Below are positions 9,278-36,495 of a DNA stretch of 64,000 bases, piece by piece (position 1 is the first letter of the stretch; each line of letters begins with the position of its first letter). The position numbers and the translations under genes were made by a program. Below the pieces are notes generated by a model. That model saw only the letters and a program-made list of their open reading frames with translations. It was not told the origin of the DNA and did no database searches. The DNA comes from a virus, in IMG/VR virus record IMGVR_UViG_3300007513_000007, positions 116,577 through 180,576 of that record; one strand, given 5' to 3'.

Positions 9278-9357
9278 CCGGGTTTCCCGCTCCGACGAGG
9301 GAGTACCTTACCTACGGCATCGAGGCATATAGCCGGGACACCGAAACGTATTCCTAA

Positions 9358-9543: not shown

Positions 9544-9590
9544 AGAGCCACCTCCGCTTCACAGTCTCGATAGGCATGGAACCGAAGATG

Positions 9591-9619
9591 GGGGGTTCCC
9601 AGGTTGAGGAGTTATCGTA
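9591..9619 (+). promoter_or_regulatory. Plus-strand promoter-like element, copy 1 (GGGGGTTCC-N15-TCGTA)
   Basis: GGGGGTTCC at 9591-9599 and TCGTA at 9615-9619 are separated by exactly 15 bases. The same arrangement occurs at 11294 and 29053, always on the plus strand and always outside genes. The element ends 35 bases before the start codon of the plus gene at 9655. It does not resemble a sigma70 promoter. The layout (GG..CC box, about 16 bases, CGT box) is reminiscent of ECF-type sigma promoters; that is an inference. Confidence 0.6.
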
Positions 9620-9622
9620 GAA

Positions 9623-9636
9623 CACCTGTACAGGTG
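9623..9636. promoter_or_regulatory. Perfect 14-bp palindrome, candidate operator
   Basis: CACCTGTACAGGTG is a perfect inverted repeat with no spacer. It starts three bases after the TCGTA box of promoter-like copy 1, where transcription would be expected to begin, and 19 bases before the start codon at 9655. Its position fits a repressor site or a dimeric activator site. The other two copies of the promoter-like element do not carry this palindrome. Confidence 0.4.
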
Positions 9637-9654
9637 AAGGCGAAAGAGGTGCCC

Positions 9655-10554
9655 ATGACTGCCCCAAAACTGACAGAAGAAGAGGCTCGCGCTGAACTCC
9701 TGCGCCCCGCAACGGGGAAGTGTGTGGTGGTAGTAAAGGGCCGCAAAGTCCCCAGAGACACAACGGGAATAGTTTTTTGGGAGGGGGAAGGAGGTCTACA
9801 CAACCAAGGTGCTCGCATCGGATTCAAAGACGCAGCGGGAACTGCCCACTGGACCGCAGCCCACAACGTGGTGGTGGTGGTTCCAGGGTTCGACCCGACC
9901 ATCGCCTCCAATGACAAGCCCCCTGCGGGCCACACCTGGAACGAGCTTCTGCAAGCGCACACGCCTGAAGTGCCCTCCAAGGGTCAGCAGGTACGCATCA
10001 AAGAAACCTCCGAAGAGGGCGAAGTTTTTTGGGTGAAGGGTCATCGGCTTGGAGTCCGTGTGGGTTCAGGAAAAGACGATGTTCGTTGGGCTGACGCTTC
10101 CGAGGTGGAGGTTGTAAAGGATAAGCTCCAGATTCTTCAGGACTTCGCTAACGGCATCGGCACTCCCCCTCCCTTGGGCCAAGGGGTGTCTCCTCTGCCG
10201 CCCACCGTGGTGCCTGTGATCCCGCACCAGCCGCAACCCCCTTCTCCCCGCCCTACAGGACCGTCCAACTGGAATGGCGGGTTCGGTGTACCAGAGGTGG
10301 AGCCTCCAGAGGGCTGGCCTGCTCTCCCTTCCCCTTATTCCGAGATCCGTGAAGTACGGGTGTCTATCCGGGAAGACTCGGAAGGTATTTATGAGGGGGT
10401 GTATGAGGCATACGACGCCAATGGAGATTTTCTCCTCCTCATCACGGATGAGATCGCCTCCCTGCTGCAACGTCGGTACTACGTCGCTTGCTACAAAGTA
10501 GGCGGGGGAGGGCTGCTCCAGGAGTACACCACGTCCGTTGCTTCAGGTCGTTAG
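9655..10554 (+). CDS. Plus-strand protein with two SH3/KOW-like repeats and a proline-rich linker, 299 aa
   Basis: I chose the ATG at 9655 because AGAGGT precedes it by a normal distance; an in-frame start at 9604 would lie inside the promoter-like element. Two similar small beta-rich modules lie at about residues 20-77 and 108-155. Each has a GxVFW strand (GIVFWEGEGG, GEVFWVKGH), then a glycine-flanked strand and a W(T/A)xAxxVxVV end, like SH3 or KOW folds. A proline-rich linker follows (170-225), then a C-terminal domain (228-299) with a Gly-Tyr-rich core (GIYEGVYEAYDANG). Function unknown. It is one of only five plus-strand genes and is probably expressed separately from the late operon. 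Its TAG stop overlaps the TAA stop of the facing minus gene by two bases, and no terminator lies between them. Confidence 0.8.
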   Translation: MTAPKLTEEEARAELLRPATGKCVVVVKGRKVPRDTTGIVFWEGEGGLHNQGARIGFKDAAGTAHWTAAHNVVVVVPGFDPTIASNDKPPAGHTWNELLQAHTPEVPSKGQQVRIKETSEEGEVFWVKGHRLGVRVGSGKDDVRWADASEVEVVKDKLQILQDFANGIGTPPPLGQGVSPLPPTVVPVIPHQPQPPSPRPTGPSNWNGGFGVPEVEPPEGWPALPSPYSEIREVRVSIREDSEGIYEGVYEAYDANGDFLLLITDEIASLLQRRYYVACYKVGGGGLLQEYTTSVASGR

Positions 10555-11189
10555 AACGTGATTCGCCAAGTGATGGTGAGCCGTGCCGTGCTGGGCTTGG
10601 AGATAACCCCAAAGGTCAGGTAGTTGATCAACACGTCGTAGTCACGCAAGTCCCGTGACAGTTCCCGTGCCGGGTAAATGTCCGGGTTGGGGTAAGTGAC
10701 CAGGGGATTGTCCGAACGGGTAGACATGATCCCCATTTCATTCAAAGGCCCTACCGCCTCTGCCTCATCGTAGGTGCAGGTGAAGTCCACAACATTGGTG
10801 GGGATTTCGGAAGCGCCGCCGTCAGCGTTCCTGAATGTAGTCGAACTCCACGCCTTCCTCTGAATCTCTGCGTTGAGGGAACGCTGATCTGGGCTTGGGG
10901 CGTCCGGGGAAAGCAATGACCCCAAAGCCCCCGTCCCAACAGCCAGCATATTCGCGCCGTTGTTAGGCTCTGAAGGGTCCTTGAAGTAGCGTGCGGCTTG
11001 GATTCCAGCGTCTGCCGTGATGACGTTGTTGTAGTGCTCGTCGTGGAGAACTTCCCCGGTAACGGAGTCCACCATCTTGACGAAGACTTCCCCTTTGGGG
11101 AGGGTCATCGCAGCAGCATGTTCGATGGAGAATCCCATGTTTACCCGACCTCGTGGAGATTGAAACCTGTCTTTCATCATTGAACTCAT
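10551..11189 (-). CDS. Putative virion structural protein, 212 aa
   Basis: The frame is open upstream as far as 11552, but that stretch contains the strong terminator and reads as non-coding. The ATG at 11189 has GGAGG nine bases upstream and begins MSSMMKDRFQ. The body has the shape of a common phage minor structural family: an N-terminal strand (VFVKMVDSVTGEVLHDE), a 'LAVGTGALGSLLSPDAP' loop, a 'SLNAEIQRKAW' helix, a Glu-rich strand and a C-terminal strand ending TARLTITWRITF. This likeness is from family memory, not a search. Length suits a small fibre or decoration protein. It follows the 402-base non-coding gap and the terminator at 11535, so it probably has its own promoter; I could not identify one with confidence. 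Confidence 0.75.
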   Translation of the reverse strand: MSSMMKDRFQSPRGRVNMGFSIEHAAAMTLPKGEVFVKMVDSVTGEVLHDEHYNNVITADAGIQAARYFKDPSEPNNGANMLAVGTGALGSLLSPDAPSPDQRSLNAEIQRKAWSSTTFRNADGGASEIPTNVVDFTCTYDEAEAVGPLNEMGIMSTRSDNPLVTYPNPDIYPARELSRDLRDYDVLINYLTFGVISKPSTARLTITWRITF

Positions 11190-11293
11190 GCTGTCCTGCC
11201 TCCGTGTCCTCCACTCTACCGAAGGCCAGCGAGTACATGGTGTCGAACGTCTGGAGCCATAGCCAAACCATCGAAACAGGAAACTTGAGAAAA

Positions 11294-11322
11294 GGGGGTT
11301 CCCGTTGGACACCTCTCCCGTA
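11294..11322 (+). promoter_or_regulatory. Plus-strand promoter-like element, copy 2 (GGGGGTTCC-N15-CCGTA)
   Basis: GGGGGTTCC at 11294-11302 and CCGTA at 11318-11322, with the same 15-base spacer as copies at 9591 and 29053. It points right, into a non-coding stretch that ends at a strong hairpin (11535-11568). No plausible plus-strand gene lies downstream: beyond the hairpin the plus strand is antisense to the membrane-protein gene. Confidence 0.5.
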
Positions 11323-11328
11323 AGGAGT

Positions 11329-11570
11329 TCATCGAGGGGAAGGCCGCTCAAACCAACAGGCCCTCTCCTCCCCCTCCAACTATGAGGACCAACTCGATGG
11401 ATTGTATTTAGGGGCTTTTGTCGCCATTGTCCCGACCCAAGGTGACCTCCGGTGTGCGAGGTAGGCCACACCCCTGACGCAGCGGCAGGCCGAAGAGGTC
11501 CGCTGAAACCCCCCACAACCCCAACAAGGACGAAGAAACCCCCCGCCCACAAAGGGTCGGGGGGTTTCCT
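11329..11570 (+). ncRNA. Candidate small RNA between promoter-like copy 2 and the bidirectional terminator
   Basis: This is an inference from layout. A transcript starting about seven bases after the CCGTA box would be roughly 240 nt long and end at the 11-bp hairpin at 11535-11568. The stretch has no ORF with a ribosome site: the only ATG frames are a few codons long, for example the one at about 11390 that ends within nine codons. It can form local stems such as GGCC pairs near 11343-11370. It would be transcribed divergently from the minus gene at 10551-11189 and could act on that gene or elsewhere. It could instead be only an untranslated leader. Confidence 0.3.
11535..11568. terminator. 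Strong rho-independent-type hairpin, probably bidirectional
   Basis: An 11-bp perfect stem (GAAACCCCCCG at 11535-11545 with CGGGGGGTTTC at 11558-11568) closes a 12-base loop with a further CCC/GGG pairing. It lies 24 bases past the TAA of the membrane-protein gene (11592), where it would end that minus-strand transcript. The stem ends in TTT on both strands; the following U-tracts are short (TTTCTTCG on minus, TTTCCTGTTG on plus). It would equally end a plus transcript from 11329. Confidence 0.75.
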
Positions 11571-11591
11571 GTTGTGTCGAACTGGGAAGGG

Positions 11592-12125
11592 CTATTCAGA
11601 CTTGCCCTTGAGCATATGCTTGAACATAAGCTCCCAGCCACCGATTGCAACTACCCCCGCCAGGACACCCTGTACAAGTGCATCCATAAGGGCCACGCCA
11701 CTCGCGAGGCCGACACCCAAGGTGCTGGCCACTGCAAGGCCCATAGCCACCCAAGGAATCGCCTTGGCACCAACCTTGTCCTTCAAGCCGAACTTGTTGG
11801 CCAGCATGACAAGGAGCATCATCAGGAATCCCAGTGCAAGGGACCAGTCTTTGTCTTGGACCGCTTTGACAAGAAGGCTGATGTCATCGGCTGCTTCGTC
11901 CAGGGTCTCTGGAACAGCTTCGGCTTCCTCGGCCTTGTCGTCGCCGTCTTCTGCCTTCTCCTCTCCTTCAGAGGCAGCAGCATCTTCAGAAGCGGGTGCC
12001 GCCTCTTCCGCAGCCTCGGCTGCTTCCGCTGCTTCAGCAGCCTCGGCTGCTGGTTCCTCTGCAAAAGCAGTAGTGGGGACCGTCAAGCCGAACATCAGCA
12101 CGATCAGGGTTAGAAAATGTCGCAT
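11592..12125 (-). CDS. Signal-peptide membrane protein with Glu/Ala-rich stalk, possible holin, 177 aa
   Basis: The start is the ATG at 12125, with GGAGGA six bases upstream; the longer frame to 12299 lies inside the neighbouring gene. Residues 1-22 are a typical signal peptide (MRHFLTLIVLMFGL, cleavage after AFA). Residues 23-80 are an acidic Glu/Ala low-complexity stalk with AAE repeats. After a short amphipathic helix (78-92), three hydrophobic segments follow at about 94-112, 122-142 and 146-166, with small-residue packing (GLAVASTLGVGLASG), and a basic end (KHMLKGKSE). Size and multiple hydrophobic segments fit a holin, and the place at the end of a tail operon agrees. A signal peptide plus acidic stalk is unusual for holins, so an envelope or exclusion protein is also possible. 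No endolysin is seen nearby. A terminator follows the stop. Confidence 0.75.
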   Translation of the reverse strand: MRHFLTLIVLMFGLTVPTTAFAEEPAAEAAEAAEAAEAAEEAAPASEDAAASEGEEKAEDGDDKAEEAEAVPETLDEAADDISLLVKAVQDKDWSLALGFLMMLLVMLANKFGLKDKVGAKAIPWVAMGLAVASTLGVGLASGVALMDALVQGVLAGVVAIGGWELMFKHMLKGKSE

Positions 12126-12210
12126 ATGTTTCCTCCATGAAAAATGGTCAACCCGACTGGGATGATAGGGAAATAACCGTCGGTAGTTGAAAATGCACCT
12201 TGTAGGGCGC

Positions 12211-15200
12211 TTACGGGGCGCTTGCGGCCTCAATGGTGAATACCGTAACAGTGGGGCTGGGGAGGGGAAGCCCTCCAGACAGCACAAGCTGGTAACCATC
12301 CAACTGGGAACCGCCAGCCAACACAGACCTCTTGACGAGGGTTCCGGTGCGCGGGTTGGGTCGGAAAGCCACCTCGTTGCTCAACGTAAAGGTAAGGGAG
12401 CGGGACGAGGAGATGTTTACCTGATTGGTCGTGGGGAGTGTTTCCACTTGAGCGTGGCACAGGCCGAGGAAGCTATTGGCGGTGTCGTTGATCGCATCTC
12501 GAATGTTCGCCACTGTTTCAGCATCGGTAGCACCAATCTGGAACTCATCCGCTCCTGGAGCGCCTGCTGAAGCAGTAAGGGGAAGGCCGCCAATGGTGAT
12601 GGTGTCTCCCGCGAGGATAGAGGCGTTGTCCAAGACGATGACCTCTCCAAACCATGTCTTGGCTCCCCACGGTCCCAAGCGGGAGGTGCCCGTATCCGAC
12701 CCGTAGTCCACCAAACGTGCCACGCACTTCCCAACACCAAACGTGCCAGGGACGCCATCCGGGTTGTCCGTCACGGGGATCGGGTTGGTTGGAGGTACGT
12801 TGTCCCCCATCCAGCCTGGGTCGAAACTGTCTGTGCGAGGTGTCACGTCCTGCATGACAATGCGGAACTCTTGATTCAGGCCCATTCCTGGGGGCGGCTT
12901 TCCTGAAGGGCCTCTCGCATTGGGGTAAAGAACCGCTGTTCCGGGTCCAAGCACGCCGCCTTGAATCACGCCGCCTGAAGCAAGCAACACCGAAGACTGG
13001 TCGAAGTAGGTGGATGACTTCTTGAAGGTCGGGGAGGATTTACCCCAAGGACCTGCGGGACCCTCTGGCACTGTGAAGCTGTTGCCGTAGTCTGTTCCGT
13101 CAACCTCGATGCCTGCGAATCCTTGAGCGATTCCGGGACCATCGCACAGCGAGGAAATCCAGATGCTCTCCCCGTCCTCAACCTCACAGAAAGACATGTC
13201 CGTGTAGAGGGAGGTGGCCGTCTCCTTGAACTTCACCACCCGGTGAGGGTCGTTGGTGATGAGTGTTTCGGCGTCGTCCAGGACATCAAGAGGGTCGTTG
13301 ATCCGGGACCCAGCAAGAACTTCCCGGATTGATTCAGTATGTCGCCCCGTCGGTACAGGAGGCGTTCCTTCATTGAGGAGCGTGACTGACTGCTCTATCG
13401 GCTGCGAACAGAGGTATGTCTCCGTCACAGGCTGACTTGCAACAAAGGTGATGGTTACGGGATAGCTGGAAGAGGGAAGGGGAGCTACAAAAGTGATGGT
13501 CTGGGTTGCTTTGTCAAAGGCCCAGTCTGCTATGGGAATCACCACCCCATCCACCTGAACCACAAAGACCCGATCTGCCTGCATGGCGCTGGCACGGACG
13601 CTCACTGTGGTGTGCGAAGATGAGTTGATCGTCACTACTTCAGGGGTGGTGTCGTACAACCACTCGCCTGAAGTAAGGCGGTGATACCGATTCAGGATCA
13701 TGTTTTGAGGGGCAATCCCAAAACCGTCAGGGGCACCTCTCAAGCGGTAACGGACAGAACGCCATCTCTGCGACGTGATGGAATACGGGTTGATGGACCC
13801 CCACCGAATGGACCCCTTCTCCTTCTCCAAGGTGGGGATGTCCGGGGTCTCTACGGAGATCCAAGCCGCACTTGGATCAGTGGTTTCGGTAGCGAAGTCG
13901 CCCGTGTACCAAGGTGGAGGGGAAAGATCAGGCCGGTAAACGCAGACGCCCCACTCTGGGTCGTAGTACATCCGCGCCCGGATATAGTCCTGCTTCCAGT
14001 CCATAGGGACGATCTGGGCACTGGGATCCGTGTTTGCGACAGAGAGGGAGTCCAGGCGAGGAAGGCGGTAGCCATCGAGCTTGTCCGGGTCAGCCCCTAC
14101 GAGCAAACCAAGGGTACGAACGATAGCTCCGTTCGCCCCTGCGGCTGCTGTCACAAGAGTACGCAGCGGGACTACGCTGAAGGAATCCCACACCGAAAGG
14201 GAGGTTGCAGCCTCGATAACGCCGAACCTGCCGTAGAAGGTGTTCTGTTTATCGGAGGGCACCTCCAGGAAGGAGTCGAGGGGCGCTGATCCCTGGACCT
14301 CGTCGTCCACTACAAGCACAGCGATGTTAGCTGTGGGGTCGCACACCAGTCGGTAGTCATGGAACCGCTGGTCGTCCCATCCGACACTCCAAGCATCCAC
14401 AATCACAGAGGGGTCACCGGGGACCTCTGGCAGCTTGATTAGCCCCACCTTGCCGTCGGGGAGCCAATCCACTTGTATGTTGATCGCTGTCGTGGCACTG
14501 AAGGGGACGACCACCCCAAACGTGGGGCCAGCACGACCATCGGCTGCTTCAGAGGACCGGATCTTTATGCGAGCATCCGCAATCACCCCGTCCAAAAGAA
14601 GAGGGTCGCTTGAGGGCAGCGTTTTACCTTGAGACCAGAGGGAGCCGCCCACGCCGCCCTGGGAAACCACCAAGCGGTTCCCGAACACGGCCACCGTATT
14701 GGTATCCGTGTTGTTCCAGCTTGCGGGACTCCAGTTCGCATCAACGGGCTTCAGCAAACCGGACAGGCTGCAAGCGGGAAGGTTCAGCAGCTTCCTGTAT
14801 ACAGGCGTCCCATCGGATTCGGTGACGTTCTCCCCTTGGAGGTATGAGATGGTGCTAACTCTTGAAACACGTTCCGTATCCTCGATGATCAGCGAGGCGC
14901 TGGCAGAACCTTGGATGTGGCTTTCCACCTTGAAGGTGGCCTCCACCTCGGTCCTTGTCTTGGGCGTGAGGAACGGGACGGCCCTGTTGTACGAAAACGT
15001 GAGGTTATTCCCATGATTCAGGGCGTTAGTAGCCTGCGAGTTGGACTTCAACAGCAGTGTGTCCCCTGTTGAATCAACCTCCGCATAGCCAAACCCACCG
15101 GAGATGAACCAAGGAGTGGGGCCGGTTTGTGGAACTCGGTTCATCTCCGTGAGGACCGTGATTCCGTGGGATGTCTCGACAAGGTACTTGGGAATCACCG

Positions 15201-18033
15201 AGTAGTGGACCACCTCCCAAGCCGAGATATTAGTTGCCCTCCTCGACAAAGAACCCCAGAACACGGAGCCGTTCTCTGGCCCCTTTGGAATAGCTGGGAT
15301 CACAAGGGAAGTGGAAGCAGGGAACGCAGTCGCCACAACCTCGGAGACCAAAGTCCCTGACACAGAGCCGCCGATGGATACCGTTGTGACCCCTCCAGGG
15401 AAATCGGTCAACATCCGAACAGAGACAAGCTCCTCACCCCACGGGACATCGAAGAGAAGGTAAACGGTGTCGTTGCCGAACAGGTCCACCCGTGCGGGCA
15501 AGGATTCGTTCAGGACAAGGGTTATTGTCCCGTCCTCATTCAAGTAGGTCCCGCACGATGCGACTGTGTAAACCCCGGCTTGGGGACCCGTCGGAATACG
15601 AATCGCGCTTCCGGCTTTGACCCCGGAAAGGAGGGTGTTGTAGGGGAGCTTGATGGTGGTCGCGGTTGTGGCAATCCCGTCCAGGCCGGGGCCAACCTTC
15701 CAAGCGGATTCCAGATCGGGCCGTGCAGCGTTTTCGAGAAGCCCCAGCGACCGGACGCCGTCAACCTTGAGGAATCCCACAAAAGGCATCTTCAGGCCGT
15801 CATGGACCCCTATCCCCACACCCGAAAAGACCCCATCGTAGGTGCCGGTGTCTTTCAGTTGGACGCGAACGCTGTACTCAACAGCACACGCCAAGGACAA
15901 ATCGACGTTTCTCTCGTAAAGAGCGGGGGTGCCGTCCTTGTAGGTTCCAGATACAGCATCTACGAGGATGTAGTCGTCCTCATTCCCGACATATCCGGCG
16001 TCAGTCCCAGTGAGCGCCCAAGGAGCCGCTGAATCATCGGCGGGGGGCACCCTTCCGTGGTAGGTGACCACCTCCTCTTGAGAGGATGCTTTCATCCCCC
16101 CCACAGAAAGTTCGTGAGGGTTTTGGTTGGTCAAAAGGGTCGTTGGCTGGTTCAGAAGGGCAGAATAGCCCCCCAGTTGGAAACCCATGTACCGGTGGCC
16201 GATATGTTTCGGGCTTTTCTGGGGCTTCGGACCAAGGAGCGTCCCCATCGGGAAGCGGTGGTAGAGGGAGGCTCCCTTTGAAGATGCCGGAACAGGTGAG
16301 TGCGCTCCCGGCGTGTGTCCTACTGACCGGTCCCATTTGTTCAGGGTCAGACCTCTGGTGTTGAGGCCCTCCATCACCATTGGAGGGTTTGAGAACCAGA
16401 TGTAGTCGAGTTCAACCGACATGTCCCCCGGAGCCGCCAGCGGGATCGGAATGGTGGGGTAGATTTCGCCAACCCAAGGGTTTACGTCCCGAACCTCAAT
16501 CCCGACCCCATCCAACCGGACTTCAACATCATCCCGAGTCGCGGGGGTTGCATCACCCCACCCTCGAACCAACGGCCCTCGGGCTGTCTGAATCACGTCA
16601 CGGGTAAGAACAACGGATCCCAGGAAGGCGTCCTTCAGTTCATGGATAAAGTTCCAAGTCGAACTGAAAACGGTGGAGGAAGCACTAATCTCTACCTGCT
16701 TGACGACGAAAAGCTGGACTTCGTGAGGGGCCAGCAACAAAGCCTGTGCCCCTACGGGAATAGTCGTAGGAGTCACGGCCCCGATGGGGAAGGTGAGGAG
16801 AGGTACTCCGTTGAACAGGACCGAGTAGAAGCCCCCGTACTGATTCCTGACCAGGGTTAGGGTCTCGGCAGAGTTCGCCCCCCACTCCGCAGGAACAGTT
16901 CCCACAACCCCCAGAGGTGTCGAAATGTCGATCACCTTGGTGCCTGCGATGTCGCCCAACGTCAGGATGACCTGACGGCTTCCGTCATTCACCGTGAAGC
17001 TAAATAGGGACGACCCGGTAACCGGAGGGTGAATGTGGGCGCTTCCGCACTGGAAAACGATGTCTGCCCTGTAAGTGGTCCCGTCAATAAGCCTCCCAGA
17101 AGTGTCTCCAAAGGACCACCCGTAAGTGACCCCCACTGCCTTGCTCAAAACAAGCTGGTTGGACACGATCTCGGAGGTTCCAGTGCCGACCTCAACGCCG
17201 TCGAAGGACGTGGCTGCACTGGGAAGCTCTTTGCCCTGGTAGTCAAATGCTTCAGCAGGGCCAACCGTCAGGTCGTACTCCACCTTCGTCATCGGTGAGA
17301 CGTCGAGAAAGACCTTGCTTGGGAGAGCCGCTACCTGTTCTGCCGAATGGATGACCGGAGCCACGGGGTAGTCCCCCACAACAGAATACGAAGCGACCGC
17401 ATCCACTCCAGGAGAGAACGATGATTCAGGGAGGAGGGCCTGGGGCAGCCCTCTTGAATCAAAGAACTCCAGGAGAACAGTACGGCCATCGTCACCGGGA
17501 GGAGCCGGGATAAGAGCATTGACCGTGTACTTGTCTCCGTAAGCAGAGAAAGAAGCCGAGTTGGTCGGGGGCGGCCCGACGATATTTCCAGCCAAATCAC
17601 GAGGGCCGGTTGGGCCGGGGTCTACGGTGACGACGTAAAGACCGCCCAGTGTGGACCCGGTGTGGTAGACGATGACGGACGTGTAACCGTCGTGTGATCC
17701 AGGCGTTCCGGGAGACACCTGCACTACCGTGAGGGGAACCCCGTAAGTAGCGGTGAGGACGTAGTTGGCGGCGTCCGTAAGATGGCTGTCGTGAGCCATC
17801 TCCTCGCTGAAGAGAACCTCTACGGAATACCCGTCAATAGGGTTGGCCCCCGTCACCCGAGGAGGCGTGATGTCTACCGAACCATACGAGGAAAGACCGT
17901 AGGCGGCCCCGCCATAACCCCCACCCGGTGGGACCGGGAGCCTTGGGTGGGCTGCACTACCGTAGGGTGAGAATCCGTAGGCGTTGCCTCCGTACCCAAA
18001 TCCCCCCATCAATCCCGGTAGAAATACAGCCAC
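12211..18033 (-). CDS. Large tail fibre/appendage protein, 1940 aa, Gly/Tyr-rich N-terminus and Ig-like domain
   Basis: The start is GTG at 18033 with AGGGTGG upstream, 13 bases from the stop of the preceding gene. Residues 1-52 are Gly/Tyr-rich with two copies of a AYGxSxYGS motif (AYGFSPYGS at 18-26, AYGLSSYGS at 44-52), a type of N-terminus I associate with virion attachment segments. Residues about 52-165 resemble an Ig-like Big_5/SbsA domain (ITPPRVTGANP, VEVLFSEEM, RDLAGNIV). The long middle holds several jelly-roll-like segments (for example TEVEATFKVES, YRLVCDPTANIAVLVVDD), suggesting LamG-like carbohydrate-binding folds; this is tentative. Residues about 1805-1905 carry the AGDTITIGGLPLTASAGAPG domain that also occurs inside the 1129-aa protein at 5888-9277. 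Likely a host-recognition appendage. Confidence 0.8.
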   Translation of the reverse strand: MAVFLPGLMGGFGYGGNAYGFSPYGSAAHPRLPVPPGGGYGGAAYGLSSYGSVDITPPRVTGANPIDGYSVEVLFSEEMAHDSHLTDAANYVLTATYGVPLTVVQVSPGTPGSHDGYTSVIVYHTGSTLGGLYVVTVDPGPTGPRDLAGNIVGPPPTNSASFSAYGDKYTVNALIPAPPGDDGRTVLLEFFDSRGLPQALLPESSFSPGVDAVASYSVVGDYPVAPVIHSAEQVAALPSKVFLDVSPMTKVEYDLTVGPAEAFDYQGKELPSAATSFDGVEVGTGTSEIVSNQLVLSKAVGVTYGWSFGDTSGRLIDGTTYRADIVFQCGSAHIHPPVTGSSLFSFTVNDGSRQVILTLGDIAGTKVIDISTPLGVVGTVPAEWGANSAETLTLVRNQYGGFYSVLFNGVPLLTFPIGAVTPTTIPVGAQALLLAPHEVQLFVVKQVEISASSTVFSSTWNFIHELKDAFLGSVVLTRDVIQTARGPLVRGWGDATPATRDDVEVRLDGVGIEVRDVNPWVGEIYPTIPIPLAAPGDMSVELDYIWFSNPPMVMEGLNTRGLTLNKWDRSVGHTPGAHSPVPASSKGASLYHRFPMGTLLGPKPQKSPKHIGHRYMGFQLGGYSALLNQPTTLLTNQNPHELSVGGMKASSQEEVVTYHGRVPPADDSAAPWALTGTDAGYVGNEDDYILVDAVSGTYKDGTPALYERNVDLSLACAVEYSVRVQLKDTGTYDGVFSGVGIGVHDGLKMPFVGFLKVDGVRSLGLLENAARPDLESAWKVGPGLDGIATTATTIKLPYNTLLSGVKAGSAIRIPTGPQAGVYTVASCGTYLNEDGTITLVLNESLPARVDLFGNDTVYLLFDVPWGEELVSVRMLTDFPGGVTTVSIGGSVSGTLVSEVVATAFPASTSLVIPAIPKGPENGSVFWGSLSRRATNISAWEVVHYSVIPKYLVETSHGITVLTEMNRVPQTGPTPWFISGGFGYAEVDSTGDTLLLKSNSQATNALNHGNNLTFSYNRAVPFLTPKTRTEVEATFKVESHIQGSASASLIIEDTERVSRVSTISYLQGENVTESDGTPVYRKLLNLPACSLSGLLKPVDANWSPASWNNTDTNTVAVFGNRLVVSQGGVGGSLWSQGKTLPSSDPLLLDGVIADARIKIRSSEAADGRAGPTFGVVVPFSATTAINIQVDWLPDGKVGLIKLPEVPGDPSVIVDAWSVGWDDQRFHDYRLVCDPTANIAVLVVDDEVQGSAPLDSFLEVPSDKQNTFYGRFGVIEAATSLSVWDSFSVVPLRTLVTAAAGANGAIVRTLGLLVGADPDKLDGYRLPRLDSLSVANTDPSAQIVPMDWKQDYIRARMYYDPEWGVCVYRPDLSPPPWYTGDFATETTDPSAAWISVETPDIPTLEKEKGSIRWGSINPYSITSQRWRSVRYRLRGAPDGFGIAPQNMILNRYHRLTSGEWLYDTTPEVVTINSSSHTTVSVRASAMQADRVFVVQVDGVVIPIADWAFDKATQTITFVAPLPSSSYPVTITFVASQPVTETYLCSQPIEQSVTLLNEGTPPVPTGRHTESIREVLAGSRINDPLDVLDDAETLITNDPHRVVKFKETATSLYTDMSFCEVEDGESIWISSLCDGPGIAQGFAGIEVDGTDYGNSFTVPEGPAGPWGKSSPTFKKSSTYFDQSSVLLASGGVIQGGVLGPGTAVLYPNARGPSGKPPPGMGLNQEFRIVMQDVTPRTDSFDPGWMGDNVPPTNPIPVTDNPDGVPGTFGVGKCVARLVDYGSDTGTSRLGPWGAKTWFGEVIVLDNASILAGDTITIGGLPLTASAGAPGADEFQIGATDAETVANIRDAINDTANSFLGLCHAQVETLPTTNQVNISSSRSLTFTLSNEVAFRPNPRTGTLVKRSVLAGGSQLDGYQLVLSGGLPLPSPTVTVFTIEAASAP

Positions 18034-18046
18034 ACAGCCACCCTAC

Positions 18047-18805
18047 TTATGCGGGCACAAGAGCGCGTTGGTCTGTTCCAAAAGCGGCACTTCCGATAAG
18101 GATGGGTGTATCGCCGTTGCTGAAGGTCAAGTCCAGGACGAGGTTGGCGATGCCCATAGGCTTGAACACAGCAGTGGAGGGGTTGCCTGCACCAAAGAAG
18201 TTGGCGAGCTTTAGGGGTTGGGAAATGGTAACCCCGTTCTCGAAGCCGGAAAGACCCACGGCATTAGCCGGAAAGACCGTGCCTTCGCAGTCAACCATCT
18301 TCAGGGCAACAGTAGGGAAGCCCAGGCCCGTGTGGATTGCACCGATGTTGAACGTCCCGAACACTGGATCAGCCCCGAACCAAGTGACTTGAATATGGTT
18401 GAAGTCCACAACGAAAGGCCACACGATCCGAATACCGGCAGCACCATCCGGGGCGAGGAGCTTCACAATCTGCTCGCCCATGAGAGTGCCATCAGTCTCT
18501 TTGGTGGGCGACAGTGACTCTGTCACGTTGAAGGTGCCCGAGGTCACCTGCACCCAGGCATCCCGCGCCCCAACGGACGAGATATGAGGGGGTGCCAGCA
18601 TAGCCGTGGAACTTGCGTTCAGGCCCTTGCTGTCAGTCATCTTGAAGGACTGGTTACCTGCATCATCCGTCGATAGTGACAGCGTAGGGCGAAGCTGCCC
18701 TTTATTCTGGTAGTCCTTCGGAGTGACGCCTGTCTTGAAGGCAAGTTCGTCGTAAAGGATAACGGAGTTGTAGAAAGGGGAGCCGCAGCCGCCAAGGAGT
18801 GACAT
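18047..18805 (-). CDS. Probable fibre-associated structural protein, 252 aa
   Basis: ATG at 18805 with GAGGTG four bases upstream. The product begins MSLLGGCGSPFYN and is mostly beta-strand-like, with no signal peptide, membrane segment or coiled coil. I do not recognise a family. It is the second gene of a run of five fibre genes (12211 to 27407) with gaps of 2-13 bases or overlaps, so it is most likely part of the same appendage or a chaperone for it. Confidence 0.75.
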   Translation of the reverse strand: MSLLGGCGSPFYNSVILYDELAFKTGVTPKDYQNKGQLRPTLSLSTDDAGNQSFKMTDSKGLNASSTAMLAPPHISSVGARDAWVQVTSGTFNVTESLSPTKETDGTLMGEQIVKLLAPDGAAGIRIVWPFVVDFNHIQVTWFGADPVFGTFNIGAIHTGLGFPTVALKMVDCEGTVFPANAVGLSGFENGVTISQPLKLANFFGAGNPSTAVFKPMGIANLVLDLTFSNGDTPILIGSAAFGTDQRALVPA

Positions 18806-18817
18806 AGTTCACCTCAT

Positions 18818-19660: not shown

Positions 19661-19662
19661 TG

Positions 19663-20235: not shown

Positions 20236-20244
20236 AGGTAACCT

Positions 20245-23200: not shown

Positions 23201-24597
23201 ACCTTGAGGGTTACGGCAGGGTCAGCCTTGTCGCTGATGCTCACAAGGGTGTTGGAGATCAGCTTGCCGGTAGCATCAGAGAAATGCGGAACCTGGGTTG
23301 CCACAGTTCCAGCCGCCCCGGATGTTACATCACCCCCCAGGCTGCCTCCGATGATTCCGTTTCCGGTTGCGTTCACCACCAGTGCCGTGTTCGCCACAAT
23401 CGTGGCGTCGAAAGGCATCTGGACGCCTCCGACTGTGATGGCATTTACAGTCGGGTTGGGGTAGGTCCCAGCAAGGTCACCCCCGGCCCCACCGGAAGGG
23501 GGCGAACTGCCATACAAGGCACCCGGCCCGGTGGTGTTTGACGTGTAGGTGCCGCCAACATTGTCGAAGCTCGTAAGGGTGACGTTATCAACGAGGAAAT
23601 CAGTGTTGTTCAGCGGTGCTGCTGCGCCAAAGGACGCACTGATAGTGAACCCGCAGTTGAAGAAGCCGATAGGGTCCTGGACATTGGCAAGAGTGGTAGC
23701 GCCACCCCCGGCATCAAAGGTGAAGTCCGTTCCCGTGAACAAGCACCCGGAGATATGGCCGTAACCGGCCATGTTGATGTCTCCCCCAAACTCCGAGTTC
23801 ACAAGGCGCTTGATCCCAACGGTCTGTCCTGCGCCGCCATCAAGGACGGGGTCGGCTCCCGAGAAAGAAGCAAGGATGGAATCCACCACTTCGATGCGAA
23901 GCTGGCCACCCCCGGCCCAGCCGGTAGCGTCAAAGAAGCCGCCTGTTCCACCAGCCCCCTGTAGCCCACAATCAATAAGGTGAACCTCATACGAGGAGGG
24001 CTGCGTGCTTTGGAACGTGATGGTGTCGGTAAACCGGAACCGCTCGAACGAGATGGTAAAAATGGCGTTCGTGGAAGGAGCAACAGCAGCATTCAGGGAG
24101 ATGGTGCGCGGCGTAGCTGAAGCAGTGTCCGTAAGGTAAACCTCTCCGTCACCGACAAGGGAGATGGAACGCTTGTCTGGGAAGACGAGGTTCTCGTCAT
24201 AGAAGCCGCCACTGATGATAACCGTGACGCCTTGGAGTTCCTCAACCGGAACCGCAGGAGTGCCGATAGCCGTCAAAGCATCCTGGATGGTGGTGTAAGG
24301 GGCAGCGATAGAGCCATCGCTTCCTCCAAGAGCGTAGGACGAATCAACGTACAGCCGTCCGCGCAAGGGGTTGACGGTCGCACCGCCGCCCCCGCTGCCA
24401 AGCTCCACCCATGTCGGCCCTGTGGGGTCTGTCAGAACGAAGAAGGTATAAGGAGTACCAGCGCCAACGCGAGCCATCTTTCCGGTGTCTGCCCCGGTAT
24501 AAACCGCCGCATCCCGATCAACCGTGGAAGTGTACTCCCACGCCACGAGAGTGTGGATTCCTTGCGCTGTTGTTTGATCACCGTGAAATGCACTCAT
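20245..24597 (-). CDS. Long tail fibre, 1450 aa: beta-helix head, repeated GQVLQTDG modules, shared C-terminal tip domain
   Basis: The ATG at 24597 overlaps the upstream stop (ATGA), indicating translational coupling. Residues about 82-350 resemble a pectate-lyase-superfamily beta-helix (RLYVDSSYA, then YTTIQDALTAIG, GVTVIISGGFYDENLVF, SISLVGDGEVYL). The middle is modular: four LP(S/T/D)xDGxxxxVLxTDGxG..W modules, such as GTAGQVLQTDGAGGVTWAAP, and repeated 'GTGDVVGPVSATDHALARF..ATGKL' segments. The last 115 residues (about 1336-1450) are the tip domain shared with the proteins at 19663, 27532 and 28203 (VILKVWVRYTTVF; ILTVTTGASA; GFVCVMLHKA). I infer a receptor-binding fibre; no catalytic residues can be assigned to the helix domain. 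Confidence 0.85.
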   Translation of the reverse strand: MSAFHGDQTTAQGIHTLVAWEYTSTVDRDAAVYTGADTGKMARVGAGTPYTFFVLTDPTGPTWVELGSGGGGATVNPLRGRLYVDSSYALGGSDGSIAAPYTTIQDALTAIGTPAVPVEELQGVTVIISGGFYDENLVFPDKRSISLVGDGEVYLTDTASATPRTISLNAAVAPSTNAIFTISFERFRFTDTITFQSTQPSSYEVHLIDCGLQGAGGTGGFFDATGWAGGGQLRIEVVDSILASFSGADPVLDGGAGQTVGIKRLVNSEFGGDINMAGYGHISGCLFTGTDFTFDAGGGATTLANVQDPIGFFNCGFTISASFGAAAPLNNTDFLVDNVTLTSFDNVGGTYTSNTTGPGALYGSSPPSGGAGGDLAGTYPNPTVNAITVGGVQMPFDATIVANTALVVNATGNGIIGGSLGGDVTSGAAGTVATQVPHFSDATGKLISNTLVSISDKADPAVTLKVDASTLASPTSAQIRMDATAASDLVNVGFDLASLPQWDLGVDGSIAGRPFRFKNGGINDVLLVSSTGALTIGISPHEYVLPDVDGTAGQVLQTDGAGGVTWAAPAGGGTVTSSAASTVATQLALMTTDTNIYNAPNATLVDGDLALDASSLGAGHTASLTLKSGHSTDPSILMFEDASNARWAVETINPVTSGNLRFKELGTNLTVMSVSTSGALTLGDHAGGSEFTLPSADGTLNQVLQTDGAGAVAWATIAGTGDVVGPVSATDHALARFNAATGKLIKNSEVILLDHTESVNGDIEMTFNGAAAGAGASALLNLDHGGAVADLAGITFSAAGPSKGAFGLLGTSDVLVIQDSAGNERFSFGTEAAGTPGVLTINGAFSLPSADGNPNDVLQTDGAGNVSWAAGGGGGTLQDAYDAGHTITTSTGTDIDLTLSTAGGGLNVSGAAAGDGTVLFGIGTELLAFTVEAVSIGIASSAGASFMGGSNTQIRMNADDAADRTLLVSAANATGNALLTLDAEDQITIGGTNTVAPIIQVDAGVDAQILNLSQAGAGGESFGLFAGTADPNGSVSADAGSLFVRDTGATASLYQNTSAGSGTAWTLFSSGGTGDVVGPVAATDTALARFDSATGKLLQNSEATLTDLATDNKVVLTLDGGGAGDAGLTLTTGAAPGHDATVTLDHGGAAADTALLKFQSNSTLLCQLGLFGDGVASLPGITFQDDAGHNNLTLTYEVDAPAVGLHTTAATIDASGYVAGSIASLVVDGGPQGGPGLETHATLEFKQAGVAGFHFLSRMGGMATTPTLLLRSGFGDDVLQLDATAAGAPEIIINGSDLGGAHWFLPTVDGTAGQVLTTDGTHNAGGVSWQDPAPQGGVEIKRVDFDHTSGTVNVVTDLAAGDVILKVWVRYTTVFNNDPSTIEVGNTGSVNAYFASGDTDSTNTASGYSTEPVEPVTAGPIPPDVILTVTTGASASTTGAGFVCVMLHKA

Positions 24598-27407
24598 GTC
24601 ACCACCATATGGCCGTCGCCGTTGGTTACCAGATACCCGTCAGCATCGACCAGAGGGGTCGCTTTGACAAAGGCAGCAGGGGTCGCGGCGAAAAGGATCT
24701 GTCCCTCATCATCGGGAACAGGCAAACCACCGGGACCGCCGCCTAAAAGATCCGTGATCACCCCTGCTTCATCAACGTAGTAGGGATTGTTGATGAGGGG
24801 TGCCCCTGGATCAGTCCCGTCAGAAACAAAGATGCCGCCCTTTGCAGGCCCCGTTGGCGGGACGGGGGCATTATCGAAAATGATTCCAGTAGGATCAATG
24901 AGGCCCGGAACCGTCAGCTTTCCGGTGTCCGCGTTGTAGATCATGGGGCCGATGGCTGGGCCAGGAAGGGGGCCGAAGGTGATCTCGTTGTGGTCTGTGA
25001 CCCGGATTTCCATATGGTCAACCCAGGCACCACCCACAGGAACCTGACCCTCGAAGCCTCCCAACTCCAAGTCGATGCCTGCCCCGCCACCGCCATCCGA
25101 ACTCACCCAAAAGATGTCTGTGATGGGACCCTTCGTGGTGGTCGTAAGCTGAATCACGCCACCACCTGCGTCAGTGGCGGTCACACGGCCAGTAGTGTTG
25201 AACTTCGACAACACAGTTGCAAAGTTGTCTCCCGGTGCAAAGCTGACGGTAAAGCCGCCTGCTTCAGTGCCGAAGGTGATGTCTCCACCAGTAACCAGAG
25301 GGTCTACACAAGCACCGAGTGCCGTGAGTGTGGCAGCGGTAGCCGTTTCCGGGCGTCCGAAGAAGATGGATCCGGGACTCCCCGTGATCGAACCACCCGG
25401 ACCAATAAAGACCGACCCCGCATCCGTAACGGCAACGGGTTCAGAAGTGTCTCCCCCCAGAATGTAAACGTCACCAGCATGAGGCGGCGTGACCTTGAGG
25501 CCCTCCAAGCCCTGGCCGCCAGCAACAATGACCTTTCCGATGCGGTCACCGCCGTCAGAAGGACTGGTCCCCACAAACAGGTTGTAGTTTCGCCAGGGGT
25601 TTTCCTCAATGGAGGCGGCACGCAGGAAAGTGGTGGACCCGTAAAGGGCGTCCCCCGGCCAGATTTGCCACCCCATCGTGATTTCAGCACCGATGCCGAA
25701 CGGGTTGGGGTTGAGGTTGATTTCAGGCTTACCCACACCGCCAATCTCAACGGTTCCGGTGACTTGGAGGGAGCCTTGGGTGCTTCCCGGCACGGGGGCT
25801 GGGCTTGGAACCGCCGCATCTACGATTTGCACGGCCCCTGCGTCTGCGACGATGGTCCTGCCGCTGCCGCCTGCACCAAGGCCGCCGTCGTAAGCGTCGT
25901 CCAGGGTACGCACTTGGCTGGCGTAGTCGTAAATCTGATCCAGGGCGTTCTGGACATCGGTAGCCGTGATGTCGGGTGCCGCAGGCAAAAGTGTCGGGTC
26001 ATAGCCGATGGTGTCTGACGGAGTAGAGGCCACCAAGGAAGTGGGCAGTCCGTCGGGAAAGGTGATCGTGCCGTGTTCCGTGCTTCCGATGGAGAAGGTA
26101 GTGGTTCCGATAATGGCGGCTGTACGGAACGTGATGGCTGAATCAAGGATAGACCACCGGACCTGAAGGGACGTTCCCACAGGTGGGGACGTTCCACCCG
26201 CCCCGCCCGGATTCACGTCAATAGACTCGGTCGCTCCAGAGATGCGGCTGTAGGAAACAAAGAGTTGCCCTACGTCTTGGATGCGGGCACCGAACGTGCC
26301 GTCCATGACCAGGGTTGAATCAGCGAGGTCAAGGACCCCGTCCGTAGACCCAACCATAATCCCGGAACGTCCTTGGAAGAAGCACTCCCGAACTCGAAGC
26401 TCGGAATCCATTCCTCCAAGCAGGTAGCAGTCAACCCCAGCCCCCGAGTTCATGGTGAAGTGGCAATCTACAAACTCTGAGGTGCCTGTCCCGCCAGAAC
26501 TATGGGTAAAGGCTGGGCCTTGGGAGGGGTCAAGCCCCTCTACTTCAAAGCTGCAACGGTAAGAGGAAACGCCACCTCCACCCGTTACGGTGATAGCCGC
26601 AAAGGTTGCGGGGTGCTGCTGGAGGAAGGTGAGGTTGTGAAGCAGCACCCTTTGGGTGGACGCCGTAGTGGTCAGGGTGTGGCCTGACAGGGCCTCGTTT
26701 CGGATACGAACAATGTTCGAGGGACTGCTTGAGGAGGAACCGGGCCACCCAAAAACGTGAACCGACTCGTGAAGAGTAAGGCTCTCGTCGTAGGTTCCAG
26801 GTCGAACCAAAACAACCCAAGGTTCCATTGCTGTGGGGCCTTGGGTCACCGCGTAGTCGATGGCAGCCTGGATAGTGGTGTAGTCACCACCTCCAGAGCC
26901 ATCGACGTACACGACGTGACCAGAGGTGTAAGACGGCTTGATGAGGTTGAGGAGGGCGAGCAGGTTGTTGTTCTGCTCGTCCGTCCATCCAACCGGGTCG
27001 ATGTCTACAGGGATGGGGGTAGCAGCACCCCCGTACTGTTCCCCTGCCGCAACAAGCAGGAGGTCTTCCGTATCAAGGGTGACCTTGACCCGGAGCCTGA
27101 TGAACTGCTCGTTCTCTGTCGGCAGCCCTTGATCCAGCACAAGCCGAATCAGGTAAGGGCCTCCGTGAGTGATCGTGAAATCACCCGGAGCGGCTGTTGT
27201 CGGATCCCCCGTAAAGGAGGCCGTAGAGCCATGCGGCTGATACGCGATAGACCACGCATAAGTCGTGGACGGCGTAACCCCCGTAGACACCGACACGCAG
27301 GTAACCGTGTCGGATACCCAAAGGTCGTTGCTACTAACTCCCGTGAATGGTCCTGGAGGTCCCCCCGAAGGTCGGGTGATGGTGGCCTCGATAATCGCTA
27401 CCGCCAT
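24594..27407 (-). CDS. Tail fibre/spike protein, 937 aa: PKD/Ig-like N-terminus plus pectate-lyase-like beta-helix
   Basis: Residues 45-155 are a PKD/Ig-like module (TTYAWSIAYQPHGSTASF, GPYLIRLVLDQG, LLLVAAGE, VGWTDEQNNNLLAL). Its near copy is the N-terminus of the 261-aa protein at 28203, so it is probably the virion attachment domain. Residues about 165-430 begin with GDYTTIQAAIDYAV and WVVLVRPGTYDESLTL, typical of pectate-lyase-like helices in phage spikes. A later domain (about 725-800, GGFTVSFAPGDNFATVLSKF) resembles the flagellar-hook-like module seen in the gp25-like and giant proteins. The C-terminus ends on GDGHMVVT. The ATG at 27407 lies just inside a possible 30-codon ORF. Depolymerase activity is possible but not shown. 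Confidence 0.85.
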   Translation of the reverse strand: MAVAIIEATITRPSGGPPGPFTGVSSNDLWVSDTVTCVSVSTGVTPSTTYAWSIAYQPHGSTASFTGDPTTAAPGDFTITHGGPYLIRLVLDQGLPTENEQFIRLRVKVTLDTEDLLLVAAGEQYGGAATPIPVDIDPVGWTDEQNNNLLALLNLIKPSYTSGHVVYVDGSGGGDYTTIQAAIDYAVTQGPTAMEPWVVLVRPGTYDESLTLHESVHVFGWPGSSSSSPSNIVRIRNEALSGHTLTTTASTQRVLLHNLTFLQQHPATFAAITVTGGGGVSSYRCSFEVEGLDPSQGPAFTHSSGGTGTSEFVDCHFTMNSGAGVDCYLLGGMDSELRVRECFFQGRSGIMVGSTDGVLDLADSTLVMDGTFGARIQDVGQLFVSYSRISGATESIDVNPGGAGGTSPPVGTSLQVRWSILDSAITFRTAAIIGTTTFSIGSTEHGTITFPDGLPTSLVASTPSDTIGYDPTLLPAAPDITATDVQNALDQIYDYASQVRTLDDAYDGGLGAGGSGRTIVADAGAVQIVDAAVPSPAPVPGSTQGSLQVTGTVEIGGVGKPEINLNPNPFGIGAEITMGWQIWPGDALYGSTTFLRAASIEENPWRNYNLFVGTSPSDGGDRIGKVIVAGGQGLEGLKVTPPHAGDVYILGGDTSEPVAVTDAGSVFIGPGGSITGSPGSIFFGRPETATAATLTALGACVDPLVTGGDITFGTEAGGFTVSFAPGDNFATVLSKFNTTGRVTATDAGGGVIQLTTTTKGPITDIFWVSSDGGGGAGIDLELGGFEGQVPVGGAWVDHMEIRVTDHNEITFGPLPGPAIGPMIYNADTGKLTVPGLIDPTGIIFDNAPVPPTGPAKGGIFVSDGTDPGAPLINNPYYVDEAGVITDLLGGGPGGLPVPDDEGQILFAATPAAFVKATPLVDADGYLVTNGDGHMVVT

Positions 27408-27490
27408 CTCGACACCTCACCGGAGATCCCCGAGGGCCATGAACACACTGCTGCCGGAAGTTGGAGCTTCTGAAATAGCAGTGCGTTCAT
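27398..27490 (-). CDS. Possible leader peptide, 30 aa, overlapping the next gene's start
   Basis: A short ORF starts with ATG at 27490 behind GAGGTG (three to five bases upstream) and begins MNALLFQKLQ. It ends at a TAG inside the first codons of the 937-aa fibre gene, in a different frame. The good ribosome site and the overlapping stop fit a coupling leader for that gene. It could equally be chance in a 124-base gap that otherwise holds nothing I recognise. Confidence 0.25.
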   Translation of the reverse strand: MNALLFQKLQLPAAVCSWPSGISGEVSRWR

Positions 27491-27531
27491 GGTCACCTCA
27501 TTGGGACACCCCATCAGGAAGGGAGGGAGGA

Positions 27532-28107
27532 TCAGGTAGCGGGTTCCGAGTAGCTGATAAGCACGTTGGCAGCACCAGCACTCAAAGTAGCGGCACCGCA
27601 GTTCACCGTCACAGTGAGCGGCCCGCCAGAAGAGTTCATATGGACCGTAGACACGACGTAGTCGGCTGCTGCTGTCGTGTCGCTGTCTGCGGCATCCAAG
27701 AAGTTGGCTCCGACACCCGTAAGCTCTGCCGTAAGAGGCATCGCGGTGGGCGTTCCAGTGTTCTCGAACTGGGTCGTGACGTTGACACGAACATCGAGGA
27801 TGATGGCGTTGTTAGGGACGGTGGCGGTGCTTGCTACACCAGTGCCCTGGTTACCGAATGCGACTGGAATCATGATCCATGACTGCTCCGATCCGGCTCC
27901 GGGAGGAAGATCGGAAAGCCGTGCCGCGTCATCCGCACCAACAGGTGCGCCAACGCGAACAGGGACGAGTGTTCCACCGGCATCTTTGACATCGACGGCT
28001 GTACCCGTGATGTTGTCGAGGTGGATGCCTTGAAGGCCAGAACTGGAATCCTGGAAGATCCAGAACGTATCTTCGATAGTACCGAGAAGTTTGCGAACGA
28101 CGGACAT
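27532..28107 (-). CDS. Short tail fibre with shared C-terminal tip domain, 191 aa
   Basis: The N-terminal 70 residues (VRKLLGTIEDTFWIFQD, then GIHLDNITGTAVDVKDAGG and GAPVGADDAARLSDL) look like a fibre linker that ends in a conserved fibre-type ARLSDLP segment. Residues 77-191 are the tip domain shared with the proteins at 19663, 20245 and 28203 (AIILDVRVNVTTQFEN, PLTVTVNCGAATL, NVLISYSEPAT). AGGAG precedes the ATG at a normal distance, and a run of nine C lies just upstream of it on the coding strand. It belongs to the same fibre cluster; whether it is an alternative tip or a separate fibre is open. Confidence 0.8.
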   Translation of the reverse strand: MSVVRKLLGTIEDTFWIFQDSSSGLQGIHLDNITGTAVDVKDAGGTLVPVRVGAPVGADDAARLSDLPPGAGSEQSWIMIPVAFGNQGTGVASTATVPNNAIILDVRVNVTTQFENTGTPTAMPLTAELTGVGANFLDAADSDTTAAADYVVSTVHMNSSGGPLTVTVNCGAATLSAGAANVLISYSEPAT

Positions 28108-28121
28108 GAGAGTCTCCTTGC

Positions 28122-28130
28122 GGGGGGGGG
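28122..28130. repeat. G9/C9 homopolymer in the leader of the 191-aa fibre gene
   Basis: Nine consecutive G on the plus strand (C9 on the coding strand) lie 14 bases before the ATG at 28107, immediately upstream of the ribosome site. Homopolymers of this length slip during replication, so leader length may vary between isolates. The rest of the 95-base gap (28108-28202) holds only a weak 6-bp hairpin at 28151-28165. Confidence 0.6.
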
Positions 28131-28202
28131 TTAGTCAAAAAGCTCCGCTTGAGGCACTCTGCCTCGTCAATCTATGGCTGCAATAGAGAAGCCACCGGAA
28201 AC

Positions 28203-28988
28203 CTATGCTCGTCGGATGAGAGCCTGTATCGTGCCGACGCCCTGCGTCTCCCCACCACCGGGAGCGATGCTCACCCACAACTCCCCGAAGACGCCGAAAA
28301 TGTCTCCTGGCGAATAGGCGAGCGTGTAGGTGGTGTTGGTTACGTCAACATCCACAATCGGGAAATACTTTTCCGGGGCTGCGTCTGTTCCCACGGAAAC
28401 TGTGGAAGCTGCATCCAGGAACGGCGTGGAGAAGCTCAACCAGATTTCGAGGACTGAATCCCCTGCATCCAATGTAGTGACAGACACAGGAGAGCCAGCG
28501 TTCCACTGGAAAGTAGAAGCCACAGTCTCCACGGTTCCCGTAGGGATGAGTGCTTCAAGCTGTGTGAGGTTGTAGTTCTGCTCGTTGGCCCACCCTTCAA
28601 CATCGACATCCACCGGGATGATTCCAGTAGAGTCCCGCCGCTCTCCTGCGGCTACCAGCTTTAGGGAGGCACGGGTCGTCAGTGCCCGAAGTCGAACGTA
28701 CTGCGTCCCCTCGGATGCTGTGCCTGCGTTCACCACCAGTCGGATCAGGTAGGCTCCCGGCATATCGCAGTTGAAGAATCCTGGAGCCGGGTCAGCAGCG
28801 TTGCCGGAAAACGTCGCCATCGACCCCTCGGGGGCATAAACGATAGTCCAAGCATAGGTAGCTGCCGCGTCGATAGAACTGACGTAGACGTTGTCCCCGG
28901 CCCCTGCAAAGGACAGGTCATCACGGCTGTGCTCATCCACGTCAGTGGCGTGGTCGGCGTTCAGCCAGCTTCGGATTCGTGCTGCCAT
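28203..28988 (-). CDS. Short fibre joining the shared N-terminal and the shared C-terminal domains, 261 aa
   Basis: The ATG at 28988 has GGAG eight bases upstream and is preferred to an adjacent TTG. Residues 43-148 match the N-terminal module of the 937-aa spike point by point (TYAWTIVYAPEGSMATF, GAYLIRLVVNAGTASEG, LVAAGE, EGWANEQNYNLTQLEALI). Residues 155-261 match the tip domain of the proteins at 27532, 20245 and 19663 (VLEIWLSFSTPFLDAASTVS, LWVSIAPGGG, IQALIRRA). This protein is thus the shortest complete attachment-plus-tip fibre in the cluster, and it shows that the two domains work as exchangeable ends. It is the first fibre gene transcribed after the plus-strand island at 29102-30454. 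Confidence 0.85.
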   Translation of the reverse strand: MAARIRSWLNADHATDVDEHSRDDLSFAGAGDNVYVSSIDAAATYAWTIVYAPEGSMATFSGNAADPAPGFFNCDMPGAYLIRLVVNAGTASEGTQYVRLRALTTRASLKLVAAGERRDSTGIIPVDVDVEGWANEQNYNLTQLEALIPTGTVETVASTFQWNAGSPVSVTTLDAGDSVLEIWLSFSTPFLDAASTVSVGTDAAPEKYFPIVDVDVTNTTYTLAYSPGDIFGVFGELWVSIAPGGGETQGVGTIQALIRRA

Positions 28989-29052
28989 CAAGAAGTCTCC
29001 AAAGGAACCCTACCGGCCTGCGGGCATAGGCAAGACACCGGGCGAAGATTTA

Positions 29053-29081
29053 GGGGGTTCCGGTATACCCTCCGAACCGTA
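29053..29081 (+). promoter_or_regulatory. Plus-strand promoter-like element, copy 3 (GGGGGTTCC-N15-CCGTA)
   Basis: GGGGGTTCC at 29053-29061 and CCGTA at 29077-29081 (continuing TAGAG) have the same 15-base spacer as copies at 9591 and 11294. It ends 20 bases before the first plus gene of the four-gene island (29102), leaving a very short leader that holds the ribosome site. Confidence 0.6.
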
Positions 29082-36492: not shown

Positions 36493-36495
36493 CGC

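Follow-up and report, generated by a model that had tools for sequence, protein, structure and literature searches.

The sigma factor of phage 7-11, SaPh711_gp47, acts with the host core RNA polymerase at late promoters of the form GTAAtg-(16)-aCTA, with a 16-base spacer, and this small podovirus has eight such promoters, serving late genes only (PMC8948821). The phiEco32 protein gp36 is a phage sigma without region 4 homology that uses a single-element promoter, tAATGTAtA (PMC8948821). Like the promoters of phage 7-11 (PMC8948821), the element studied here (class A) is bipartite and varies in sequence between related phages, with a phage sigma, g111, as a candidate reader; unlike them, it occurs at about 35 sites in a huge phage that has one or two further promoter classes, all known from sequence alone. 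Set side by side by description, gp36 parallels our class B and the degenerate C-terminus of the g111 homologue in phage LR745208, although class B (CGGT-N7-CTAT) is unlike tAATGTAtA. With phiKZ and AR9, which have multisubunit RNA polymerases, the phage shares a genome size above 200 kb; unlike in those phages, no beta-prime homologue was found and the promoters are of a two-box sigma type. Bacterial ECF sigmas (SigH/SigE/SigW type) are similar in that the predicted fold of g111 matches their regions 2 and 4, but the -35 box of class A is GGTTCC and not of the AAC type, g111 has an extra N-terminal domain, and the Pfam scores of its homologues fall under the cut-off. SigW promoters have a CGTA -10 box and a spacing of about 16 bases, to which class A is similar. 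Flagellar sigma28/WhiG promoters have an analogous class in LR745208 and a -10 box, CCG(A)TA, that resembles that of class A, but class A has neither TAAA nor the additional A in its -10 box. To our knowledge, hardly anything is known of how uncultured huge phages specify their promoters, and the present case offers a several-class promoter code and a sigma family below the Pfam cut-off that are readable without experiment.

The window, a 64,000-base stretch comprising bases 116577 to 180576 of a 180,576-base IMG/VR record, contains three exact copies of GGGGGTTCC-N15-YCGTA, compared with 0.01 expected from dinucleotide shuffles (none of 100 shuffles reached three). All three are where a preliminary description had placed them, on the plus strand, in noncoding DNA and with a 15-base spacer. 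Over the whole parent record there are 24 exact copies, split evenly at 12 per strand; the reversed pattern gives 0. The scan beyond the window that had been proposed, with spacers of 14 to 16, returned a spacer of exactly 15 in 24 of 24 copies, within the near-fixed 15 to 17 bases of ECF-type promoters, and no copies with spacers of 10 to 14 or 16 to 20 were present in the record. The motif was picked after being seen and is G-rich, as an artefact of chance or composition might be, but 21 of the exact copies lie in the 116 kb outside the window, where the control gave 0; this bears out the earlier view of a nonchance motif and refutes the artefact reading, the probability of which we put at practically nil.

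Alignment of the 24 copies extended the motif to G-GGGGGTTCC-C-N14-CCGTA-nAGAG-nnCA, with a core form of GGGGGTTCC-N15-CCGTA-nAGAG-nnCA whose -35/-10 geometry resembles that of ECF-type sigma promoters. The A of the CA that follows may be the transcription start, in which case GGGGGTTCC would span roughly positions -37 to -29 and CCGTA roughly -13 to -9. A weight-matrix scan with a cut-off of 11 bits found 35 sites in the record and 0 in the reversed sequence. Among 35 relaxed matches, 29 are noncoding (8.6% at random) and 23 have a same-strand start no more than 60 bases away (2.9% at random), so that the sites are enriched before starts and most lie outside genes. The motif classes were defined and counted on the same data, with reversed-sequence controls and related genomes as checks, and the gene calls come from a home-made prediction on an incomplete parent genome.

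The -10 box, CCGTA, is of the CGTA/CGTC type seen in ECF promoters, and the -35 box, GGGGGTTCC, lacks their AAC motif (GGAAC/TGAAAC). Class A differs from the sigma28-type TAAA-N15-GCCGATAA at both boxes, and its conserved columns have no overlap with TTGACA-N17-TATAAT, in agreement with the initial exclusion of sigma70. Strict sequence and spacing could also be imposed by a regulator at an operator or other protein-binding site, and two of the window sites abut class B sites; class A, however, is directional and nonpalindromic, has a conserved discriminator and CA, and faces either a start or an RNA closed by a terminator about 50 bases downstream, which leaves the operator reading very improbable. 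Class A very probably consists of promoters that depend on an alternative sigma, and the record-wide counts and placement lend good support to the suggestion of a separate ECF-like class with its own regulon. The phage has at least two, and probably three, promoter sets, of which class A is a genome-wide set of about 35 sites.

Two of the window sites directly precede plus-strand genes, as had been noted. The first (9591 to 9619, plus; GGGGGTTCC-N15-TCGTA) lies upstream of a predicted plus-strand gene at 9655 to 10554 (299 aa, no PHROG match), and 6 bases away is a divergent class B promoter, CGGTTCCATGCCTAT, at 9570 to 9584 (minus). A second class B promoter (9329 to 9343, minus) lies 52 bases upstream of the minus-strand gene at 5888 to 9277 (1129 aa). 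All three sites are kept in the relative G001, the class B sites at 58499 and 58735 and the class A site at 58492 (minus), where the boxes are kept and, by eye, only 3 of 15 spacer bases are identical. The last class A site (29053 to 29081, plus) lies upstream of a plus-strand ORF at 29102 to 29326 (74 aa) with an AGGAGG ribosome site, followed by a second ORF at 29301 to 29738 (plus, 145 aa) with an HNH-like look, judged by eye only. It is present with an altered spacer in G001 and in a further relative, G008, and by eye its spacer matches that of G001 at 2 of 15 positions. Divergent from it, 12 bases apart, is a class B promoter at 29026 to 29040 (minus), upstream of the minus-strand gene at 28203 to 28988 and also found in G001 and G008. 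The window thus has two back-to-back pairs of class A (plus) and class B (minus), 9591/9584 and 29053/29040. The preliminary description was right that the element is real, and it lacked nAGAG-nnCA, the class B sites on the minus strand, and the divergence of the two classes at two of three places. Other minus-strand class B promoters in the window lie at 12165 to 12179 (upstream of the gene at 11592 to 12125), 28183 to 28197 (gene at 27532 to 28107; also in G001 and G008), and 36480 to 36494 (gene at 35293 to 36354; also in G001). The window also encodes a giant protein of 3,845 aa (40370 to 51907, minus) that is found group-wide at about 31 to 40%.

The remaining class A site (11294 to 11322, plus) faces a gap that has no ORF, as first described; a strong terminator hairpin, GAAACCCCCCG...CGGGGGGTTTCC, recognized from sequence and fold, closes this gap at 11535 to 11570. 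This site likely drives an RNA of about 250 nt ending in the terminator: the stretch at 11331 to 11575 (plus) contains no predicted gene and folds better than shuffles (z = -2.5, terminator included), and no Rfam family matched this candidate. Further class A sites that have no ORF close by, at record positions 43191 (plus), 85004 (minus), and 86025 (minus), may likewise precede RNAs. Behind the 85004 site is a putative noncoding RNA of about 200 nt with a terminator-like end (about L013:5170-5404, minus; in G001 on L062, at 98729, plus); it is strongly conserved in G001, matched no Rfam family, and has its exact core in only one other IMG/VR contig. The class A leaders at record positions 5098 (plus) and 71427 (minus) share CCCGC.CTGCTTGCAG..., possibly a hairpin ahead of the start codon.

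Class B, CGGT-N7-CTAT, emerged in 17 upstream regions once class A was removed; the record contains 21 copies, 19 of them between genes or immediately upstream of one, compared with 2 copies in the reversed control. Class C, GGGGGT-N17-GGGTA, is based on only eight sites (0 in the control). Beyond base 98000 of the record, class A occurs on the plus strand only (5/0) and class B on the minus strand only (0/8), the strand of the virion genes. Orthologues in at least 3 of 10 relatives were found for 10 of 29 genes after class A, 17 of 23 after class B, and 6 of 7 after class C. The timing of class A likely differs from that of the virion genes, because conservation is lowest among class A genes and the virion genes carry class B, and the three classes may correspond to early-like (A), late (B), and replication-type (C) expression. 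A CobS-like ATPase (L010:17965-19164, minus) and a CobT/VWA protein (L011:1976-3385, plus) lie behind class A promoters, in a dense class A cluster at 37.8 to 47.8 kb.

The phage is huge and myovirus-like. The contig G004, at 99.85% identity over 6.7 kb, extends it upstream and is itself extended by G003; together these overlapping contigs bring the still open genome to at least 255 kb. Its major capsid protein is 88% identical to that of LR745208.1, an uncultured 485-kb phage, 49% to that of Tunturiibacter phage Tunturi_5, and 40% to that of Bacillus phage G. The Moraphages were weighed as its group from the text of the paper describing them alone (PMC12619734). Other genes include a tyrosyl-tRNA synthetase, a DUF5131 protein, and one tRNA-Asn (L012:11753-12706, L011:13561-14442, and L012:18623-18700, in that order, all minus). 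G001 has about 75% nucleotide identity to the phage where alignable, and classes A, B, and C all occur in G001, G005, and G008, several at matching places. At orthologous class A sites in G001 and G008, the boxes are kept and the spacers changed, in two cases to almost unrelated sequence.

The search for a sigma factor or polymerase gene that the preliminary description had called for yielded the former only. Sigma Pfam searches of the record itself gave no match, and the protein g111 (306 aa; record positions 79552 to 80472, outside the window) was detected only via weak matches to Sigma70_r2 (PF04542), below the cut-off, in large relatives (E = 1e-80 to the profile of those relatives). The family, with 26 loci in IMG/VR, matches sigma-H (3mzy) over regions 2 and 4 (E = 2.7e-9), so that g111 has the region 2 and region 4 homology that marks the sigma70 family. 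The AlphaFold model has a mean pLDDT of 80 and a pTM of 0.34, and the top Foldseek ranks are ECF sigmas (E of 1e-3 to 0.1), with TM scores kept low by the loose placement of the domains. By profile and predicted fold, g111 is a divergent ECF-like sigma factor common to related huge phages. A search of 13 records, including this incomplete genome, for RNA polymerase beta-prime (PF00623) gave no hit at E ≤ 1.

The reading we favor, at a probability of roughly 0.45 for the statement as a whole, is that class A sites are genuine promoters, read by g111 on the host core polymerase. A bacterial-type RNA polymerase with this alternative sigma would touch GGGGGTTCC at -35 and CCGTA at -10 and would begin transcription at the A of CA; class A would then drive small early-like genes that are dispersed and poorly conserved, along with several noncoding RNAs, with class B serving virion and other core genes and class C some replication genes. 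Geometry and presence make g111 the leading candidate, if a far from certain one, with a host alternative sigma as its main rival. Against g111, an early class would require the sigma to be present already, and region 4 does not clearly track changes in the class A -35 box: region 4 is 72% identical between G035 and G037, yet their -35 boxes differ, whereas G016 and G036 share a motif at 38% identity, and on realignment these -35 boxes are in the same register. Among the g111 homologues of G034 to G037 and G016, region 2 is 71 to 94% identical and region 4 is 28 to 72% identical; the near-constant region 2 parallels a near-constant class B, and g111 may therefore read class B instead.

That is the role g111 would have if a host alternative sigma read class A, each phage having an early promoter suited to its own host, a possible but doubtful alternative. 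In phiEco32 and 7-11, the host sigma acts early and the phage sigma later (PMC8948821). The low conservation of class A genes fits such an arrangement, and use of a host sigma is plainly to be suspected in LR745208, which has 49 sigma28-type copies of TAAA-N16-CCGATA (also written TAAA-N15-GCCGATA), and in G018, whose motif, CTTGAC..CATACT, is sigma70-like. We take the LR745208 motif to be a perfect flagellar sigma28 consensus. On the other side, the class A -10 boxes across phages resemble variants of one another and not of unrelated host sigmas, and no scanned bacterial genome had several copies of the exact motif: a search of 257 Gb returned seven single matches, all inside predicted genes, and no genome among the GTDB species representatives carried a set. 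This absence argues against a host regulon, although hosts may use a looser consensus.

Another phage protein (a second sigma, an activator, or a polymerase in the missing part of the genome) is an unlikely reader of class A, even though the genome is incomplete, many proteins lack a family match, and in Tunturi_5 a distinct ECF sigma, gp211, exists in addition to gp3. Large proteins have no conserved DxDxD polymerase motif save an isolated DVDGD in g179, and with beta-prime also undetected, a virion RNA polymerase was rejected. A conserved tandem HTH protein, G004_059 (L113:12265-12831, minus), was ruled out by a recognition helix that stays invariant while class A changes. This clade-wide protein combines two HTH domains like those of sigma region 4, lacks region 2, adjoins a KOW/NusG-like gene, and is present in two copies in LR745208.

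Across the wider group, class B is conserved in much of the sampled set, and class A keeps its layout and changes its sequence. Counts of class B against the control were 45/4 in G016, 29/1 in G037, 12/1 in G035, 8/1 in G036, 11/0 in G042, and 21/6 in G046, and were less clear in G047 (17/8). The exact class A motif is absent from LR745208, G016, G017, and G018, which have other motifs in its place. Analogous motifs are GGGGTTCAA..CTCCGTAT in G016 and G036 (few sites in G036, provisional), CGTTAAAA..TTCCGTAAGTA in G037, GGTTGG-N15-CCGT in G035 and GGTTTC-N15-GACGTAAC in G039 (both from few sites and provisional), AACTT-N14-CGTA in G017, and GGTAAC-N16-GTAG in G046; none was obtained for G034. 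Relatives with g111 homologues show the two-box motifs TTCC-, TTGG-, TTAA-, and TCAA-N15-CCGT in near-identical register, a point in favor of g111 as the reader of class A. We tentatively propose, with more doubt than conviction, a conserved late box beside an early code rewritten by lineage at fixed spacing and co-evolving with the g111 family sigma; if so, neighboring huge phages would become transcriptionally private. This natural series of at least eight phages, in which boxes change and geometry holds, makes sigma-promoter co-evolution and the hijacking of host sigmas (sigma28 type, LR745208) directly testable.

In LR745208, neither class A nor class C occurs in promoter position, class B is not above the control, and the record gave no Sigma70_r2 match at E ≤ 1. 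The C-terminus of its g111 homologue is degenerate although the motif there retains a strict -35 box, which also counts against g111 as the reader of class A. These promoters, GATTTCnCTAAAA-N15-GCCGATAGGG, lie mostly 40 to 50 bases before starts and largely in the first 213 kb (examples in LR745208.1, L127 to L136, are at 1609, 2213, 14016, and 464699). Tunturi_5 (L137 to L141), which has a named host and two annotated sigma genes (gp3 and gp211), contains two strong promoter-like motifs, CATCTTTGG-N13-TGTAGGTTG and TGGGTATTAG.
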